The position numbers were made by a program, and so were the translations under genes. The notes under the pieces were generated by a model. The model was not told where the DNA came from. It saw only the letters and a program-made list of their open reading frames with translations, and did no database searches. This document shows positions 10,897 through 18,164 of a stretch of 64,000 nt of DNA, piece by piece. This stretch comes from Natrinema sp. HArc-T2 (GTDB taxonomy: Archaea > Halobacteriota > Halobacteria > Halobacteriales > Natrialbaceae): positions 372,001 through 436,000 of the forward strand of contig NZ_JBGUAZ010000003.1 in the NCBI RefSeq assembly GCF_041821085.1. Direction: 5' to 3'. How positions within the stretch are numbered: the stretch's first letter is position 1; every line of letters starts with the position of its first letter.

Positions 10897-12267
10897 ATGA
10901 CCGTCGATCTCGTCGTGCGCAACTGTACCGTCGTGACACCCGCGGGACGGACACCCAACGCGGGCGTCGCAGTCGAGGACGGCACGATCGTCGCCGTTGG
11001 CCGCAGCGACCGGCTCCCCGACGCCGACCGCGTCGTCGACGCCGACGGGAACGTGCTGGTTCCCGGCATCGTCGATGGCCACATCCACAACCGCGAACCC
11101 GGCCTCGAGTACAAGGAAGACTGGGAATCCGCGACGCGAGCAGCCGCCGCCGGCGGTGTGACGACCGTCGTCGGCATGCCCAACACGGACCCCGTCATCG
11201 ACCGACCCGACCATCTCGAGTTCAAGTTCGAGCGCGGCGAGGCGTCGGCCCACGTCGACTTCCAGAGCTACGCGGTCGTCACTTCCGAAAACATAGATCA
11301 GATTCCGGCGATCGACGAGGCCGGCGCGCTCGGCTTCAAAATCTTCCTCGGCTCGACGGTCGGCGACGTGCCGCCGCCGAACGACGGCGAGATTCTCGAG
11401 GCGATGGAACGCATCGGCGAGACGGGCAAACGGCTGGGCTTCCACGAGGAAAACGGCGAGATCATCGACCACTACACCGAACGGTTCCAGGCCGAGGGCA
11501 GAAACGAGCCGATCGACCACTCTCACTCCCGGCCCGTGATCGCCGAACAGGAAGCGGTCGAGCGGATGCTCACCTTCGCCGAGGAAACGGACGCGAAGAT
11601 CCACATGTTCCACGTCTCCTCGGGCTCGGCGGCCGAAGCCGTTGCGCGCGGGAAAGCCCGCGGCGTCGATGTCACCGCCGAGACCTGCCCGCACTACCTC
11701 TGGTTCACCGAGGAGGTCATGCGCGAGAAGGGCAACGTCGCTCGCGTCCAGCCACCCATTCGGGACGCCGACGAGCAGGCCCGACTCTGGAACGCACTCG
11801 AGGACGGCGCGATCGACACCATCGCTACCGACCATGCACCCCACACGCCCGACGAAAAGAAAGTCGACGACCCCTTCGGCAACACCTGGGACGCGATTTC
11901 GGGCTTTGTCGGCCTCGAGACCGAGGTCCCCGCCATGCTTTCGTTCGTCGATCAGGGGCGGTTCACGCTCGAGGAGTGGGTCCACCACCACTCGACGCGC
12001 CCGGCGCGAGTCTGGGGTATGTACCCCCAGAAGGGGTCGCTGCAGGTCGGCACCGACGCCGACTTCACGATCGTCGACCCCGACGCTGAGTGGACGCTCG
12101 AGGATCGCGAAACCCTGCACTCGAAAAACTGCGTGACGCCGTTTGAGGGCGAGTCCTTCACCGGGAAGGCGGTCACGACGATCGTCCGCGGCGCGGTCGT
12201 CTACGAAGACGGCGACGTCGTCGGCGAGTCGGGGTATGGGACGCGTGTCGACGTCGATAACAGCTAG
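10897..12267 (+). CDS. Dihydroorotase/allantoinase-type cyclic amidohydrolase
   Basis: 456 residues of the amidohydrolase superfamily. Metal ligands: His62 and His64 in DGHIHNREPG, carboxylated Lys148 in LGFKIFLGS, His183 in GFHEENGEI, His239 in MFHVSSGSA, and Asp312 in ATDHAPH. All are intact, so it should be an active binuclear-zinc enzyme opening a cyclic amide. It would usually be annotated dihydroorotase (pyrimidine synthesis), and pyrD lies 5 kb away. However the ETCPHYLWF segment is closer to allantoinases and hydantoinases than to the TPHHL of classical PyrC, so the substrate is uncertain. Confidence 0.8.
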   Translation: MTVDLVVRNCTVVTPAGRTPNAGVAVEDGTIVAVGRSDRLPDADRVVDADGNVLVPGIVDGHIHNREPGLEYKEDWESATRAAAAGGVTTVVGMPNTDPVIDRPDHLEFKFERGEASAHVDFQSYAVVTSENIDQIPAIDEAGALGFKIFLGSTVGDVPPPNDGEILEAMERIGETGKRLGFHEENGEIIDHYTERFQAEGRNEPIDHSHSRPVIAEQEAVERMLTFAEETDAKIHMFHVSSGSAAEAVARGKARGVDVTAETCPHYLWFTEEVMREKGNVARVQPPIRDADEQARLWNALEDGAIDTIATDHAPHTPDEKKVDDPFGNTWDAISGFVGLETEVPAMLSFVDQGRFTLEEWVHHHSTRPARVWGMYPQKGSLQVGTDADFTIVDPDAEWTLEDRETLHSKNCVTPFEGESFTGKAVTTIVRGAVVYEDGDVVGESGYGTRVDVDNS

Positions 12268-12455: not shown

Positions 12456-12468
12456 CTGTGTATATATA
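12456..12468 (+). promoter_or_regulatory. Probable TATA element of the SipW-cognate protein gene
   Basis: GCTGTGTATATATACC is the strongest TATA-like stretch in the 12268-12562 gap. Initiation about 27 nt on would give a leader of about 70 nt before ATG 12563, so this gene may not be leaderless. The rest of the gap shows no gene. Confidence 0.45.
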
Positions 12469-12562
12469 CCTCCCATGGACGGGATGTAGCTACTACGTCC
12501 CAGATGGCACACGGCGGTTCGACTCCGTCGCTGGGGTTCCCCTGGATGGGGAAGAGAACACA

Positions 12563-13900
12563 ATGGCAGAAGATAATGATTCGATCTCGAGACGGAACGT
12601 ATTGGCAGGACTGGGCACGATCGGTGTCGGGGGCGCGCTCGCGGGAGCAGGCACGAGTGCGTTCTTCAGTGATAAAGCGAACCTCCCAGACAACCAGTTG
12701 ACTGCGGGGGAGCTCGCACTTGTCGTCGACTGGGAGGAATGGTACGACATGGGTGATGGATTCGAATTGATCGATGTTTTCCCAGACCCAATGGGTGAGG
12801 GTGAACAAAACTTCGATCCGATCAAAGGTGGTGTGTGTGGTGCTGTCGATGAGGCACCCCTTTCCTCGGATTGGCGAACTCTCAGAAATTACGGTGAGCA
12901 GGATTTTAGACGTCCAGACTCTCAAGATCCTGAACCACTCGTCTATCTTAACGACGTCAAGCCCGGCGACTGTTGGGAGACGACACTGAGTTACCACCTC
13001 TGTGACAACGATGGCTGGGTCTGGTTCCGGACCAAAAACCAACGGTACGAGGACGCTGATCGCGACAACAAACCCAGTGGACACCTCGCTGACTGGGCCT
13101 GGGCCCGTGTCTGGTACGATATGGCCGACGGGTCTTACGAGATCCCCACGTTTGATGAAGACGGCGAAATCGACGGCTATGAGCGAGTCGAGGCTAGCCC
13201 AGGAGACAACGAGTGGCTCGAGGGTGTCGAGCCACTCATCGCACAGGGGACGTTACGAGAGGTACTGAACGAACTTAACGAAGGAGTGTTACTCGATCCT
13301 GATCCGCTCATCACGCCTGTTGACAATAATGGGGGCTCCTCTGAGCAGTGTGTCCACATCGATGATCGACTCGATGAGCACCCGCAAGATGAACTCAGAG
13401 ATCATTTTGACAGTGGGGACCCACTCGTATTCGAAGACAGCAACGATAACAAAGTCAAACTCACGATAACGGGACTTCATTATCAGGACGGTCCTGATGC
13501 GCCTGACTCAGAAGTCGTCGGTTTTGACTGGGAGAGCGAGTCTGGAATCTGCCAAATCGACGTCAAGGGCGGTACGCCGACGAAATCCAATCCATATAGC
13601 TGTGCGTTCGAAGGGACCGCGTTCTCCGAGTTCGGTGCAGGGAGCGGGAGCAAGCGATATGGTATCAGTTGGATTGAGGTCAGTTACTGTCCTGACGTCG
13701 AAGAGGAGCCCACGGAACCCGAGTGTATCCCTGCTTCGACGACCCACTACATTGGATTCGAGTGGTGTCTTCCGGGTGTGCCCGGACAGAAAGCTATCAA
13801 CGAGATACAGGGAGACCGACTGTCGTTCGATCTGCAGTTCTACACTGAACAATGCCGCCATAACGACAATCCACCTATGGAGTGGCCCACAGAGCGGTGA
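12563..13900 (+). CDS. SipW-cognate (TasA-like) secreted protein
   Basis: 445 residues from ATG 12563 (the frame is open to 12443, but the SipW-type signal begins here). The N-terminus SRRNVLAGLGTIGVGGALAGAGTSAFFSD has the SipW substrate form: twin Arg, a glycine-rich hydrophobic core, and an [FY]FSD box after the cleavage site, followed by PDNQLTAGELAL, which matches the N-T-x-A-G-x-L start of mature TasA/CamelysinN-like chains. The mature part is acidic, has several Cys, and contains a Trp-rich segment (WAWARVWYDM). Such proteins form extracellular fibres in bacteria. The cognate signal peptidase is at 15347-16027. Function here is inferred; no enzyme motif is seen. Confidence 0.8.
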   Translation: MAEDNDSISRRNVLAGLGTIGVGGALAGAGTSAFFSDKANLPDNQLTAGELALVVDWEEWYDMGDGFELIDVFPDPMGEGEQNFDPIKGGVCGAVDEAPLSSDWRTLRNYGEQDFRRPDSQDPEPLVYLNDVKPGDCWETTLSYHLCDNDGWVWFRTKNQRYEDADRDNKPSGHLADWAWARVWYDMADGSYEIPTFDEDGEIDGYERVEASPGDNEWLEGVEPLIAQGTLREVLNELNEGVLLDPDPLITPVDNNGGSSEQCVHIDDRLDEHPQDELRDHFDSGDPLVFEDSNDNKVKLTITGLHYQDGPDAPDSEVVGFDWESESGICQIDVKGGTPTKSNPYSCAFEGTAFSEFGAGSGSKRYGISWIEVSYCPDVEEEPTEPECIPASTTHYIGFEWCLPGVPGQKAINEIQGDRLSFDLQFYTEQCRHNDNPPMEWPTER

Positions 13901-14124
13901 ACTACCCTGAGGTCAAGCTTGGAGCCACCCATAGATTTAACATGAACACTTCCTGCTGTCTACCGGTCTGACAACCCTGAACGGACGACGAGGAATGCAG
14001 CCGGCCCGTCTACGAGGCTCGGCACCACTCACCGCAACCGCAGCGCGGTGTTTCGAAAGGTGGCGCAGTTCTCTGGACGGACGCTTCTCATTAGGGTTGA
14101 GGTCAAGTCGTTCGAGAATGGAGA

Positions 14125-14146
14125 GATTCCCGTGATCACGGGAATC
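14125..14146. repeat. 22-bp perfect palindrome beside the IS remnant
   Basis: Half-site GATTCCCGTGA followed by its exact complement. It lies 90-100 bp before the recognisable transposase and 220 bp after the SipW-substrate gene, so it could be an old IS end or a transcription-terminating hairpin. The stretch 13901-14124 otherwise shows nothing. Confidence 0.45.
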
Positions 14147-14232
14147 CTCGGGTTTCCAAACAACTCGTTACTTCGATTAAACACGAGTATCCACTAGTTA
14201 GTGCTGAAACCGACGTTCCCCACTGAACGCTT

Positions 14233-14760
14233 CACCGGCGCGTTGAGCAGTTCGCTAGAACGCTCGACGCGCCAATCATCTCTCTTGTTGGCCCAGTCGA
14301 GGTTGATTGGTTTTACGTTTCTGCCGGGAAGAAAGGCCGCGAGCGCGACCAAGAGCCGCGCTCGCGTGGTATCTCGAAACGCGGACGAGGAACGTATGAC
14401 GAAGACAAGCCGCTAGTATTCACGCTCGTGGATCGCGGGAGCGATCAGCGATACGTCGCCCCGGCGAAATCCGCGACCGAATCGATTGTGCGACTCCCCT
14501 TGGTGAGTGTCGAGGAGGAGTCGCTAACCGTCTACACGGACGGATTTCGGGCCTATGTCCGATAGAAGACGATGAGAACTTCACCGGGAAGCAGTGATTC
14601 ACGGAGACGGTGAATACGGAGATGGTGATGCACACGTCAAACCTGCGAGAGCCGCGTCGCTGGCGCGCCGGTGGCTCTCGCCGCATCGAGGTGTCTCAAA
14701 GGACAGACTGACAATGTATCTCAGGCCGTTCCAACTCCGACGACAACCCCTTGGTAAACC
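14233..14760 (+). pseudogene. IS1595-family (ISH4-like) transposase remnant with frameshifts
   Basis: Read in frame from 14233: HRRVEQFARTLDAPIISL, then PVEVDWFYVSAGKKGRERDQ, the Gly/Arg-rich stretch, VFTLVDRGSDQRYVAPAK, and SLTVYTDGFRAY up to a stop at 14563. These are hallmarks of haloarchaeal IS1595/ISH4 transposases (DDE type). After two single-base losses near 14557 and 14584 the next frame gives AVIHGDGEYGDGDAHV and SPHRGVSKDRLTMYLRPFQLRRQ, the family C-terminus. The N-terminal zinc-binding half is missing and terminal repeats were not identified. It is inactive and sits inside the SipW module. Confidence 0.82.
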
Positions 14761-14867
14761 GAGTTGAGAACGCTCCAACAAATCATTCGAGCAGTTCTCT
14801 AATTCACCAACAGCGTGCTTCACAAGAGCGAAAACGAAAATCATTGCAGCTGTTCCTGCAGGACGAT

Positions 14868-15350
14868 TTAGCGCTCGTTATAATCCGAACTGTCCGCATT
14901 CCCGTTCTCGTCATTACCAATAACAGCTACCACCCCTTCAGCTTCTTTATCAGCAGCAGTGACGACGTATAGATGCTCGCCGGTACCGAGCTCGTCAGCA
15001 TCAACTGTGAATGTAACACTATCGGTTTCGCCACCTTCGAGTATCACCTCTTGATTCTCGGATTTGTTTTTGGTCTCGAACTCGACCATCACAGCCTCGG
15101 TATATCGATACTCGTTACTGAGCGTCGCTGTGATCTCGAGATTGTTGCTACTGTTTTCGGTCAGCTGGAGGTCACCTCCGTCGTCAACAGCGAGTTCTAT
15201 ACCCCAGTTGTCTGCCGCACCAAGATTATTGTCCTCGAGTGACTTCGCATCCGAGAACTGACTGCCGGTCGGCCCGATCGATGTCGCTCCGACAACCGTT
15301 CCGAAGAGGACGAGCGCAACGGTCAGTCGAACGGCGTGTGTTCGTATCAT
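14868..15350 (-). CDS. Small secreted protein with SipW-type signal, coupled to signal peptidase
   Basis: 160 residues. A hydrophobic signal (LTVALVLFGTVVGATSIG) is followed by GSQFSDAKSLEDNNLGAADNWGIEL, the same QFSD...N-x-L-x-A-x-x-W layout as the SipW-cognate protein at 12563. The mature part is a single predicted beta domain (TDSVTFTVDADELGTGEHLYVV) like those in archaeal surface proteins. Its ATG overlaps the stop of the signal peptidase gene by 4 nt (ATGA), so it is probably a dedicated substrate. Structural role (fibre or fibre anchor) is inferred. Confidence 0.75.
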   Translation of the reverse strand: MIRTHAVRLTVALVLFGTVVGATSIGPTGSQFSDAKSLEDNNLGAADNWGIELAVDDGGDLQLTENSSNNLEITATLSNEYRYTEAVMVEFETKNKSENQEVILEGGETDSVTFTVDADELGTGEHLYVVTAADKEAEGVVAVIGNDENGNADSSDYNER

Positions 15351-16027
15351 GTTCCACTCTCCGTGTCGCTGGTGTCATCATCGCCTGGTTCTTGATCTAT
15401 TTCTGACCCGGATTCTGCACCCTCTGTATTGTCGCCTTTGAGCACCTCCTTGTCGGCTGGCTCCAGTGCCGGTGGACCGTCAGCTGCCTCGAGCTCGGGC
15501 GGTTCGCCGTTTGTGAGGTAACCGAACTCCCGAAGTAACTGATAGCCACCTGAAACAACGAGTGCGAGTCCCGGTCCAATCACGAGGACGAAGAGGCCGA
15601 GGCTCGAGCGGGCGAACAAAAGCAAGTGGCCGAGATACGGGATATGCCAATGGAGCTCTCCCTGCGCGTACTCGGCCGGAACGAGTCCTTCGTCTGGGTT
15701 ATCATTGGCGTCACCCTTCGTCTTGAAGTACCGTTCGCCGTTTTCCTCGCGAACCTCGATGACGCGATGGGTGACGTAGCCTCGGTCGGTGTTGCTGTCC
15801 GCGTTGAAGGTGACGACATCACCGCTCCCGATCTCGTCGGGCGAGACGTCTTTCGTGACGACGACGTCGCCTGGTCCGATCGTCGGCTGCATACTCCCTG
15901 ACGTGACGATATAGGCGTCGTCGCCGCCGACGATCCCGGGGACGGTGACGACGGCGACGAGGACGAGCATCGCGAGAAGCAACATACCGCTAACGGTGTA
16001 GACGACCGATTTCGCGTTCAGTCCCAT
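15347..16027 (-). CDS. Signal peptidase I, ER/SipW type
   Basis: 226 residues. First transmembrane segment at about 9-33, catalytic Ser45 in TSGSMQPTI, general-base His87 in YVTHRVIEV (Ser/His dyad of the archaeal/eukaryotic/SipW class rather than Ser/Lys), and conserved Asp106 in KGDANDN. A second membrane segment at about 140-165 and an acidic tail follow. It cleaves signal peptides on the outer face of the membrane. It lies between a membrane HTH gene and a small SipW-like substrate gene, overlapping both, so it is probably a specialised peptidase rather than the general housekeeping one. Confidence 0.88.
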   Translation of the reverse strand: MGLNAKSVVYTVSGMLLLAMLVLVAVVTVPGIVGGDDAYIVTSGSMQPTIGPGDVVVTKDVSPDEIGSGDVVTFNADSNTDRGYVTHRVIEVREENGERYFKTKGDANDNPDEGLVPAEYAQGELHWHIPYLGHLLLFARSSLGLFVLVIGPGLALVVSGGYQLLREFGYLTNGEPPELEAADGPPALEPADKEVLKGDNTEGAESGSEIDQEPGDDDTSDTESGT

Positions 16028-16623
16028 TGGTCGTCACCTCGTTGTCTCGGTGGCGGACCGTCCGCTCCGAGCCGCATGCGATCATCGTAGCGGACGTGAA
16101 CCGTTGCAGACACGGTAAACAACGCGGTGATAAACCCTGCTCCGGCGAGTGGATCGATCGCTCCGAACGGAACGATGTTGGCCCACATACTGAACAGGAA
16201 TCCCGTACAGAGCACGCCGAGCCCGGCGTAGTACTTGCTCCACGGGATGTCGTCGTGTGGAACGACATCGAGGTACACCTCGAGCTCCGAGGCCGCATCG
16301 GTGAGTTCGACGATGCCGCGGTCGCTATCGAACCTGATGACGCCACCGTCGTCCAGTTTCGGCAGGTGTGCCTGTCGAAGCGCGGTATACACCCGCATTC
16401 GCTGGTCGCGCGTGACGGACGCAGTTGGAACACCGTTTTCCCAGGCGGCGACCTGCTCGACGAGGTCGCGGACCGCGACCGGCTGACTCGGTCGTTGTTT
16501 CAGATAGTGCATGACGTAGCGTCGGCGCGGGCAACTCAACAACTCGAACGCGACGTCCTGTGACAACTCGGAGGTGTGGCTGCTCGAGCGGGTGACTAGC
16601 CGCCGGAATGTTGTCGACGTCAT
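16018..16623 (-). CDS. DUF7344-type winged-helix protein (copy 3), first gene of SipW operon
   Basis: 201 residues. Winged helix LLSCPRRRYVMHYLKQRP, DLVEQVAAWEN (shared exactly in part with the protein at 1934) and VYTALRQAHLPKLDDGGVIRFD, then two hydrophobic segments at about 135-180. Its 3' end overlaps the signal peptidase start by 10 nt, so both are translated from one mRNA with the small secreted protein. It is the best candidate regulator of the module (inference). Confidence 0.82.
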   Translation of the reverse strand: MTSTTFRRLVTRSSSHTSELSQDVAFELLSCPRRRYVMHYLKQRPSQPVAVRDLVEQVAAWENGVPTASVTRDQRMRVYTALRQAHLPKLDDGGVIRFDSDRGIVELTDAASELEVYLDVVPHDDIPWSKYYAGLGVLCTGFLFSMWANIVPFGAIDPLAGAGFITALFTVSATVHVRYDDRMRLGADGPPPRQRGDDQWD

Positions 16624-16880: not shown

Positions 16881-17954
16881 TCAGTTGGCGATATCGACGC
16901 CGACCGCTTGCTCGACCGACGAAAAGCCGTCACGCTCGAGCAACTCGACGAATCCCTGATTGATCTGCTTCGCCGTCGACGGCCCCTGGTAGACGAACCC
17001 AGTATAGAGCTGGACGAGCGAGGCACCAGCACGGATCTTCGCGTAGGCGCTGGCTGCCGAGTCGACGCCGCCGACGCCGATAATCGGCAGTTCTCCGTCG
17101 GTGTATTCTGCGATCGACCGGATCATGGCTGTCGAGCGACGTTCTAGCGGCTTCCCACTGAGGCCGCCCCACTCCTCTTGCGAGGGTGAGACCAGTCCGT
17201 CGCGACTCGTCGTGGTGTTCGTCGCGACGATGCCGTCGAGGCCGAACTCCTGGACGATGTCGACGAGGTCGAAGACGGAGTCCTCGGGGGAGTCCGGCCC
17301 GATCTTCACCAGTAGCGGGACGTCCGCGTCGTTTTCGGCCTCGAGCGTCTCGAAGATCGCTCGCAGATGCTCCGGCGAGCCCTCGTCGAACTCCTCTGGC
17401 GTGTTCGGACAGGAGACGTTGACGACGACGTAGTCGGCAAACGGCGAGAGTCGGTCGAAGACGCGCCGATAGTCTTCGATCGCCTCGCGTTCGCTCGAGG
17501 AGTTCATCTTGCCGACGTTGACACCCAGCGGGATGTCGGGGGTACCATCGGCTTCGAGCCGGGATTTGACCGCTTCCATTCCCTGCCCGTTGAAGCCCAT
17601 TCGATTGACCATCGCCTCGTCTTCGCGCAGCCGGAACAACCGGGGGCGGTCGTTCCCGTCCTGTGCGTACGGCGTGACGGTGCCGATCTCGACGAAGCCA
17701 AAGCCAAGCGCGGCGAGTGCGTGGGTCACTTCGGCGTTCTTGTCGAAGCCGGCGGCGATGCCGACCGGATTCGGGAACGTTGTATCGAACAGTTCGACCT
17801 CGAGGGCGGGATCCTCGTACTGATAGGCAGACGAGAGCGCCCGCTGTGTCGGCCAGGTCGATTGGGCTGCCCGGAGCGTCCGCTTGCCGAGTTCGTGGGC
17901 CGTCTCGGCCGGCAACTTGAACGCGAGGGGGCGAACCCGAGAGTACAGCGTCAT
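16881..17954 (-). CDS. pyrD: Dihydroorotate dehydrogenase, class 2 (quinone-dependent)
   Basis: 357 residues. It oxidises dihydroorotate to orotate with FMN, passing electrons to membrane quinone (step 4 of pyrimidine synthesis). Class 2 features: the N-terminal membrane-association helices MTLYSRVRPLAFKLPAETAHEL, AAGFDKNAEV, the FGFVEIGTVTPYAQDGN segment, RMGFNGQGMEA, and the catalytic-Ser region VVVNVSCPNTPEEFDEG. The FMN phosphate site is VGGVDSAASAYAKIRAGASLVQLYTGF. Start is ATG 17954, where class 2 N-termini begin; the frame extends 8 codons further. No operon partners. Confidence 0.93.
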   Translation of the reverse strand: MTLYSRVRPLAFKLPAETAHELGKRTLRAAQSTWPTQRALSSAYQYEDPALEVELFDTTFPNPVGIAAGFDKNAEVTHALAALGFGFVEIGTVTPYAQDGNDRPRLFRLREDEAMVNRMGFNGQGMEAVKSRLEADGTPDIPLGVNVGKMNSSSEREAIEDYRRVFDRLSPFADYVVVNVSCPNTPEEFDEGSPEHLRAIFETLEAENDADVPLLVKIGPDSPEDSVFDLVDIVQEFGLDGIVATNTTTSRDGLVSPSQEEWGGLSGKPLERRSTAMIRSIAEYTDGELPIIGVGGVDSAASAYAKIRAGASLVQLYTGFVYQGPSTAKQINQGFVELLERDGFSSVEQAVGVDIAN

Positions 17955-18164
17955 TGCCCCCACGTGAGGACGGCCCACACGTAAACGTCTCGAAGCACTC
18001 GAGGGGATCTCTCACGACGACCGACCGTGACCGCCCATCGATATTCGACAGACGATAGTAATATCCAAACTGAGGGAACAAATGTCTAGTTCTAGAATGA
18101 TAAAATAAACAAATATCCACAAAGTATTTGCCGAGCGACTTTCGAAATCCATTCGAAATCACGA

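Follow-up and report, generated by a model that had tools for sequence, protein, structure and literature searches.

In a 64,000-nucleotide (nt) stretch of the Natrinema sp. HArc-T2 genome (contig NZ_JBGUAZ010000003.1, positions 372,001 to 436,000; hereafter the window), we analyzed a four-gene module that, from its genes and their families, conservation, co-occurrence, predicted folds, and RNA covariation, is probably a haloarchaeal form of the SipW/TasA surface-matrix system. The plus strand carries the gene of a large SipW-type substrate (P0001, 445 amino acids [aa], 12563..13900) with a twin-arginine signal (SISRRNVLAGLG), an FFSD box, and a predicted TasA/camelysin-like core with an inserted beta-domain. 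Convergent with it on the minus strand lie the genes of a DUF7344 winged-helix protein with C-terminal membrane segments (P0004, 201 aa, 16018..16623), a SipW-like archaeal signal peptidase that is putatively dedicated (P0003, 226 aa, 15347..16027), and a small exported protein (P0002, 160 aa, 14868..15350) that has a signal without a twin arginine, a SipW-type box, and an immunoglobulin (Ig)/CARDB-like domain. As the preliminary description of this DNA had stated, all four frames are open, the minus-strand genes overlap as one operon (by 10 bases at 16018-16027 and by 4 bases at 15347-15350), and the membrane helix-turn-helix protein belongs to DUF7344 (105 bits, cut-off 27.8); we regard P0004 as the putative regulator of the operon. 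The preliminary observation as a whole was thus confirmed, and its interpretation was partly supported.

The N-terminus of P0001 was of the SipW-substrate type, as had been claimed: the protein passed the TIGR04088 model (cognate_SipW) at 24.8 bits (cut-off 19) and the Pfam Peptidase_M73/camelysin model at 24.7 bits (cut-off 22.5). The N-terminal box was present in both exported proteins (FFSDKANLPDNQLTAGEL in P0001 and QFSDAKSLEDNNLGAADNW in P0002); in P0002, where it was seen by eye and the TIGR04088 model gave no match, it recurred with variation in 12 orthologous loci, unlike the remainder of the protein, so the common [FQ]FSD-type box is real rather than a chance match. In addition, P0001 has a twin arginine before the h-region (SRRNVL), which the preliminary description had missed. 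R10 and R11 were invariant in P0001 alignments of 21 and 48 proteins, an RR pair was found in 193 of 195 haloarchaeal substrates with a recognized box (the two exceptions were N-masked or truncated), and the fuller motif [ST]RRxxL was matched by none of ten bacterial relatives. Because the RR pair is near-universal among them, the haloarchaeal large substrates look, from their sequences, as if they are exported by the twin-arginine translocation (Tat) route. Relatives of the large substrate are also encoded in Patescibacteria (L143, L146-L151); they have Sec-type signals but share the FFSD box, and a SipW-like peptidase is encoded next to some of them.

P0003 was recognized as an archaeal signal peptidase I (sigpep_I_arch, TIGR02228, 108 bits; cut-off 51.9) and could be aligned with human SEC11C and SEC11A. 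Its score on the Bacillus SipW model (NF046067, equivalog) was 97 bits, below the cut-off of 190; on these profiles, it appears SipW-like but is not a Bacillus SipW equivalog. Ser45, His87, and Asp106 were invariant across 16 relatives. A Ser/His catalytic pair is the normal state of archaeal signal peptidases; thus, this pair, which had been noted previously, is no evidence for SipW. The Sec11b-like housekeeping peptidases of the same genome (the tandem pair L002, and L003) likewise belong to the Peptidase S26 family with Ser/His, but reached only 0-36 bits on the SipW model. The location of P0003, together with this difference in score, supports the claim that it is a dedicated peptidase, as does its co-occurrence with substrates. 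The two tandem genes of L002 (G000:C2:428599-431853), which lie beside an orc/cdc6-like gene, probably encode the housekeeping Sec11.

We addressed this co-occurrence in 125 Natrialbaceae genomes, calling P0003 by similarity to P0003 itself (E <= 1e-20) and substrates by the independent model TIGR04088. Homologs of P0001 were found in 47 genomes, TIGR04088 substrates in 42, and the peptidase in 39. A substrate was present in all 39 genomes with the peptidase versus 3 of the 86 without it (Fisher p 3e-29), and these three substrate-only genomes were 53-77% complete; none of the 50 peptidase copies was farther than 5.2 kb from a substrate. Close P0004 orthologs (E <= 1e-74) occurred in exactly the 12 genomes with a close P0003 (E <= 1e-45), nearly all of which have the large substrate facing the DUF7344-peptidase-small protein operon. 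These counts bear out the expectation that the gene set would co-occur in other genomes. Elsewhere, two to five substrates form an array together with a longer peptidase (L077-L083, and numerous loci of Halorubrum, Halobellus, and Haloarchaeobius). Throughout the class Halobacteria, TIGR04088 exceeded its cut-off in 167 of 391 genomes, representing 55 of 86 genera. The suggestion that such a system is little described did not hold, since substrates are widespread in Halobacteria and archaeal TasA-like pili are already known: the bundling pili of Pyrobaculum calidifontis (AbpA) are reportedly archaeal TasA-related fibres (Wang et al. 2022, cited in PMC9674648 and PMC10151520). Our literature searches on SipW or camelysin in haloarchaea found nothing pertinent.

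The module is flanked by dihydroorotase-like (10897-12267) and dihydroorotate-dehydrogenase-like (16881-17978) genes, and the same neighbourhood is often kept around orthologous modules. Between the convergent stop codons of the two units lies a spacer (13901-14867) that contains a degenerate IS1595-type insertion sequence (IS) on the plus strand (matched DNA 14163..14830). Relative to an intact 294-aa transposase, to which its segments are 72-75% identical, the transposase is 5'-truncated (residues 1-86 are missing) and frameshifted at about 14556-14579; its DDE_Tnp_IS1595 match reached 25.1 bits, under the cut-off of 27. The element is therefore dead, as had been noted, but it interrupts no gene, being wholly in the spacer. 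Inactivation of the module by the IS was rejected, because none of the four frames is broken and the convergent stop codons flank the IS.

The fold of P0001 was modelled with AlphaFold from a 48-row alignment (predicted local distance difference test 75.5, predicted template modelling score 0.70). Foldseek with this model returned nothing below E 0.001 (8aur had E 0.026, probability 0.75). A second aligner placed three TasA entries at the head of its ranking (5of2, Z 7.9; 8aur, a fibre, Z 7.5; 5of1, Z 7.4), superimposing 143-159 residues of 191-233 over the full TasA domain at a root mean square deviation of 3.2-4.0. On the fold ranking of the model plus the sequence models, a TasA-type core in P0001 is likely but not proven. 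The TasA/camelysin jelly-roll envisaged for both exported proteins may thus apply to the large substrate, predicted to be a beta-sandwich with TasA at ranks 1-3 (Z below 8), but not to the small one, whose model was Ig/CARDB-like.

A variable insert splits the P0001 core at about residues 245-385. MIDAS-type (metal-ion-dependent adhesion site) motifs were observed inside the insert of a TasA-like core in L078:5897-7630 and L081:6600-8378, and the insert of the latter is a von Willebrand A (vWA) domain (PF00092, 77 bits). Because the insert holds such a motif, and in L081 a vWA domain, the sequences suggest that the inserts may be exchangeable adhesion domains. The vWA insert of this relative, an A2 profile that matches vWA chains, and the window's lone substrate gene, which has no small major subunit beside it, would also suit a P0001 that acts by itself as an adhesin or lattice protein after Tat export. 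Its TasA-related domain would then not polymerize, and the peptidase would process it for display only. We consider this unlikely: the tandem arrays of relatives place small TasA-like proteins next to large ones, and in L084 and L085 small subunits match Peptidase_M73 near full length (61.8 and 52.3 bits) beside a DUF7344-peptidase pair.

For P0002, profile searches gave no family match above cut-off, and across the 12 loci only its N-terminal box was conserved, with L069 and L070 having no Ig domain. Its structure model was Ig/CARDB-like with a disordered N-terminus (residues 1-48 of low confidence), and Ig/CARDB folds at Z 11-12 filled the matches listed. A TasA fold for P0002 was rejected, TasA being absent among the 50 matches listed. 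In Bacillus, the TapA gene overlaps sipW, and the protein has an Ig fold and donates an N-terminal strand to TasA (PMC10151520). Since the overlap with the peptidase gene, the Ig-like fold, and a free N-terminus are common to both, P0002 may be regarded as TapA-like in layout and as a possible analogue, by analogy rather than by demonstrated homology.

Upstream of the P0001 gene, we identified a tRNA-like leader element of the t-element type (12497..12537, plus strand) by an RNA model, fold prediction, and covariation; it had been missed previously. In particular, the P1 stem pairs 12497-12503 with 12531-12537, and the T-stem pairs 12512-12517 with 12525-12530 around the T-loop TTCGACT (12518-12524). 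The consensus is GACCCAC-nnGG-(8 to over 100 nt)-CGGCGG-TTCGA[CT]T-CCGCCG-GTGGGTC, then CCCC..GGGG, then ATG, and the window element, which pairs CCCAG with CTGGG, is a compensated variant. Single-sequence fold prediction placed a second hairpin (UUCCCC-UGGAU-GGGGAA, 12537..12553, plus strand) directly before the start codon, and a CCCC..GGGG stretch resembling it was seen in most homologous leaders. About 28-37 nt upstream of the element lies a TATA-like box, GTATATATAC (12460..12469, plus strand), the putative promoter of P0001 by its sequence; the box also precedes the element in the ortholog L069, and similar boxes occur before L066, L068, L070, L072, and L076.

A T-arm-like hairpin (at least 4 of 5 pairs) was found in 113 of 211 homologous leaders versus 0.8% of shuffled leaders, and RNAalifold gave the same 13 pairs unprompted. 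In alignment A7, whose rows had been selected for pairing, 96.9% of cells paired and 8 of the 13 pairs showed double changes, versus 0 of 500 shuffles. When leaders were instead taken by loop and position alone, the T-stem was fully paired in 93 of 97; the rarer T-stems were paired in 37 of 41 (21 expected, maximum 27), and P1 strands other than GTGGG had the exact complement followed by GG in 12 of 25 (2.8 expected, maximum 8 of 1000 permutations). The element is very similar among paralogous genes of one array, a similarity that gene conversion could cause and that would fit a DNA feature such as an operator or recombination site. Such a feature is most improbable: both stems show compensatory changes as well as G-U pairs, the T-loop is invariant, the covariation was confirmed with pairing-independent selection, and placement before genes is strand-specific. 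An RNA model (R1) built from 30 leader rows, including that of the window, matched 12497-12559 at 63.9 bits (E 1.8e-12), the next match in the window having 15.6 bits. Over 72 loci (1.26 Mb), R1 gave 127 matches, 110 of them directly before a same-strand twin-arginine open reading frame. Rfam searches of the window leader and three loci found no family over threshold (a weak tRNA-Sec match of 26.3 bits, gathering 47, was seen at one element), and by ARAGORN the window and the tested elements were free of tRNA genes, apart from genuine ones close to the weak matches of L188 and L189.

The element is not confined to this module. Weak R1 matches (24-34 bits) in ten loci (L191-L200) were located directly before all 16 haloarchaeal 5S rRNA genes examined, tandem 5S genes included, with the core 2-4 nt upstream of the gene. 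A t-element before 5S rRNA in Haloferax volcanii was reportedly described by Hoelzle et al. in 2008 and 2012, and part of the present finding may already be contained in the 2012 paper on H. volcanii tRNA-like elements. This 5S element is known to be cut by tRNase Z (PMC4326828), and t-elements in general serve as substrates for both RNase P and tRNase Z (PMC4326828, PMC4946936). Because R1 finds all 16 5S elements at such a known substrate site, we infer that the leaders are t-elements and that the mRNA 5' end is set by their processing. The main rival is a purely regulatory mRNA structure, an aptamer or a protein-binding tRNA mimic gating translation. The T-loop lies at a fixed distance of 38-46 nt from the ATG with the CCCC..GGGG hairpin following near the start codon, and the window gene, having its own promoter, does not need punctuation. 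In substrate arrays, however, the element fills 12-66 nt intergenic gaps without TATA boxes, which, along with the 5S elements, makes a purely regulatory role less likely than not.

In the family scan, high R1 matches were found at substrates or at other exported proteins, including CARDB/DUF1102 proteins; since the element also precedes CARDB exported proteins, its gene set is wider than the SipW substrates. These CARDB proteins were Sec-type and approximately 500 aa long (L179:1591-3099, also DUF1102; L181:2669-4195; L185; L187). The element was also observed before other twin-arginine or TasA-like exported proteins (L182:3306-3995, L183, L190:2867-3556), of which those of L182 and L190 match no family. 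No tie between t-elements and these fibre genes was found in the literature. We tentatively propose that haloarchaea use t-elements, until now known from positions upstream of 5S rRNA, as leader or intergenic processing tags on the mRNAs of Tat-exported, SipW-trimmed, TasA-like surface proteins, a proposal that could well prove correct. If true, the mRNA ends throughout a surface-matrix regulon would be determined by tRNase Z (and RNase P). This would be one of few instances in which tRNA-processing enzymes of a free-living prokaryote shape the mRNAs of a particular group of protein-coding genes, and the tag would be a sequence handle for finding further regulon members.

For the module as a SipW/TasA-type system, we infer the export route, cleavage, fibre formation, RNA processing, and regulation as follows. 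P0001 would be made from its own promoter, and the tRNA-like element in its leader would be cut, probably by tRNase Z and/or RNase P, so that the mRNA would begin about 25 nt ahead of the start codon. P0001 would be exported by the Tat route and lose its signal at the FFSD box through P0003, giving TasA-like beta-sandwich subunits that expose the inserted domain for adhesion and join into surface fibres or a matrix. P0002, Sec-type and co-translated with the peptidase, would probably be TapA-like, its processed N-terminus priming or anchoring assembly, and the DUF7344 protein would probably sense the state of the envelope and regulate the operon.

Several results weigh against this scheme. The Peptidase_M73 match in P0001 spans only 48 of 196 profile positions, at the N-terminus; all TasA Z-scores of the model are below 8, a level calling for caution, and GH31, an unrelated fold, follows TasA at Z 6.8. 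TAT models fall just below cut-off on P0001 (TIGR01409, 16.2 vs 16.7 bits). A small major fibre subunit of the kind present in multi-substrate clusters is missing from the window, and no sequence relation between P0002 and TapA was detected in the searches, which used family models and no TapA sequence. As for the RNA element, only about 113 of 211 leaders pass the strict test, the element is degenerate in the close orthologs L066, L068, L074, and L076, and the window leader, when folded as a single sequence, has a weak z-score (-0.85).

Among the new findings, the t-elements associated with these genes and the signals of Tat type stand out as the strongest, each with a putative function. An archaeal surface matrix would be tied to the Bacillus biofilm system, with differences (Tat instead of Sec export, a membrane helix-turn-helix regulator, and a tRNA-like tag on messages) that are testable in tractable haloarchaea. 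The tapA-sipW-tasA genes of Bacillus subtilis and sipW-calY of B. cereus share with this module a dedicated peptidase of the endoplasmic reticulum/archaeal type beside SipW-type substrates, a TasA/camelysin-like fold (predicted here), and a small Ig-fold partner overlapping the peptidase gene. In contrast to Bacillus, the haloarchaeal module has twin-arginine signals, DUF7344 instead of SinR, a convergent layout, a large inserted domain, and a tRNA-like leader, and no sequence relation of P0002 to TapA was detected with family models. The AbpA pili of P. calidifontis are reportedly likewise built of an archaeal TasA-related fibre protein, but in another phylum. Finally, the 5S t-element of H. 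volcanii has the same T-arm and acceptor-like stem without an anticodon arm and is found by R1, whereas the elements described here stand upstream of genes that encode proteins, leaving about 25 nt to the start codon, and a hairpin follows them.

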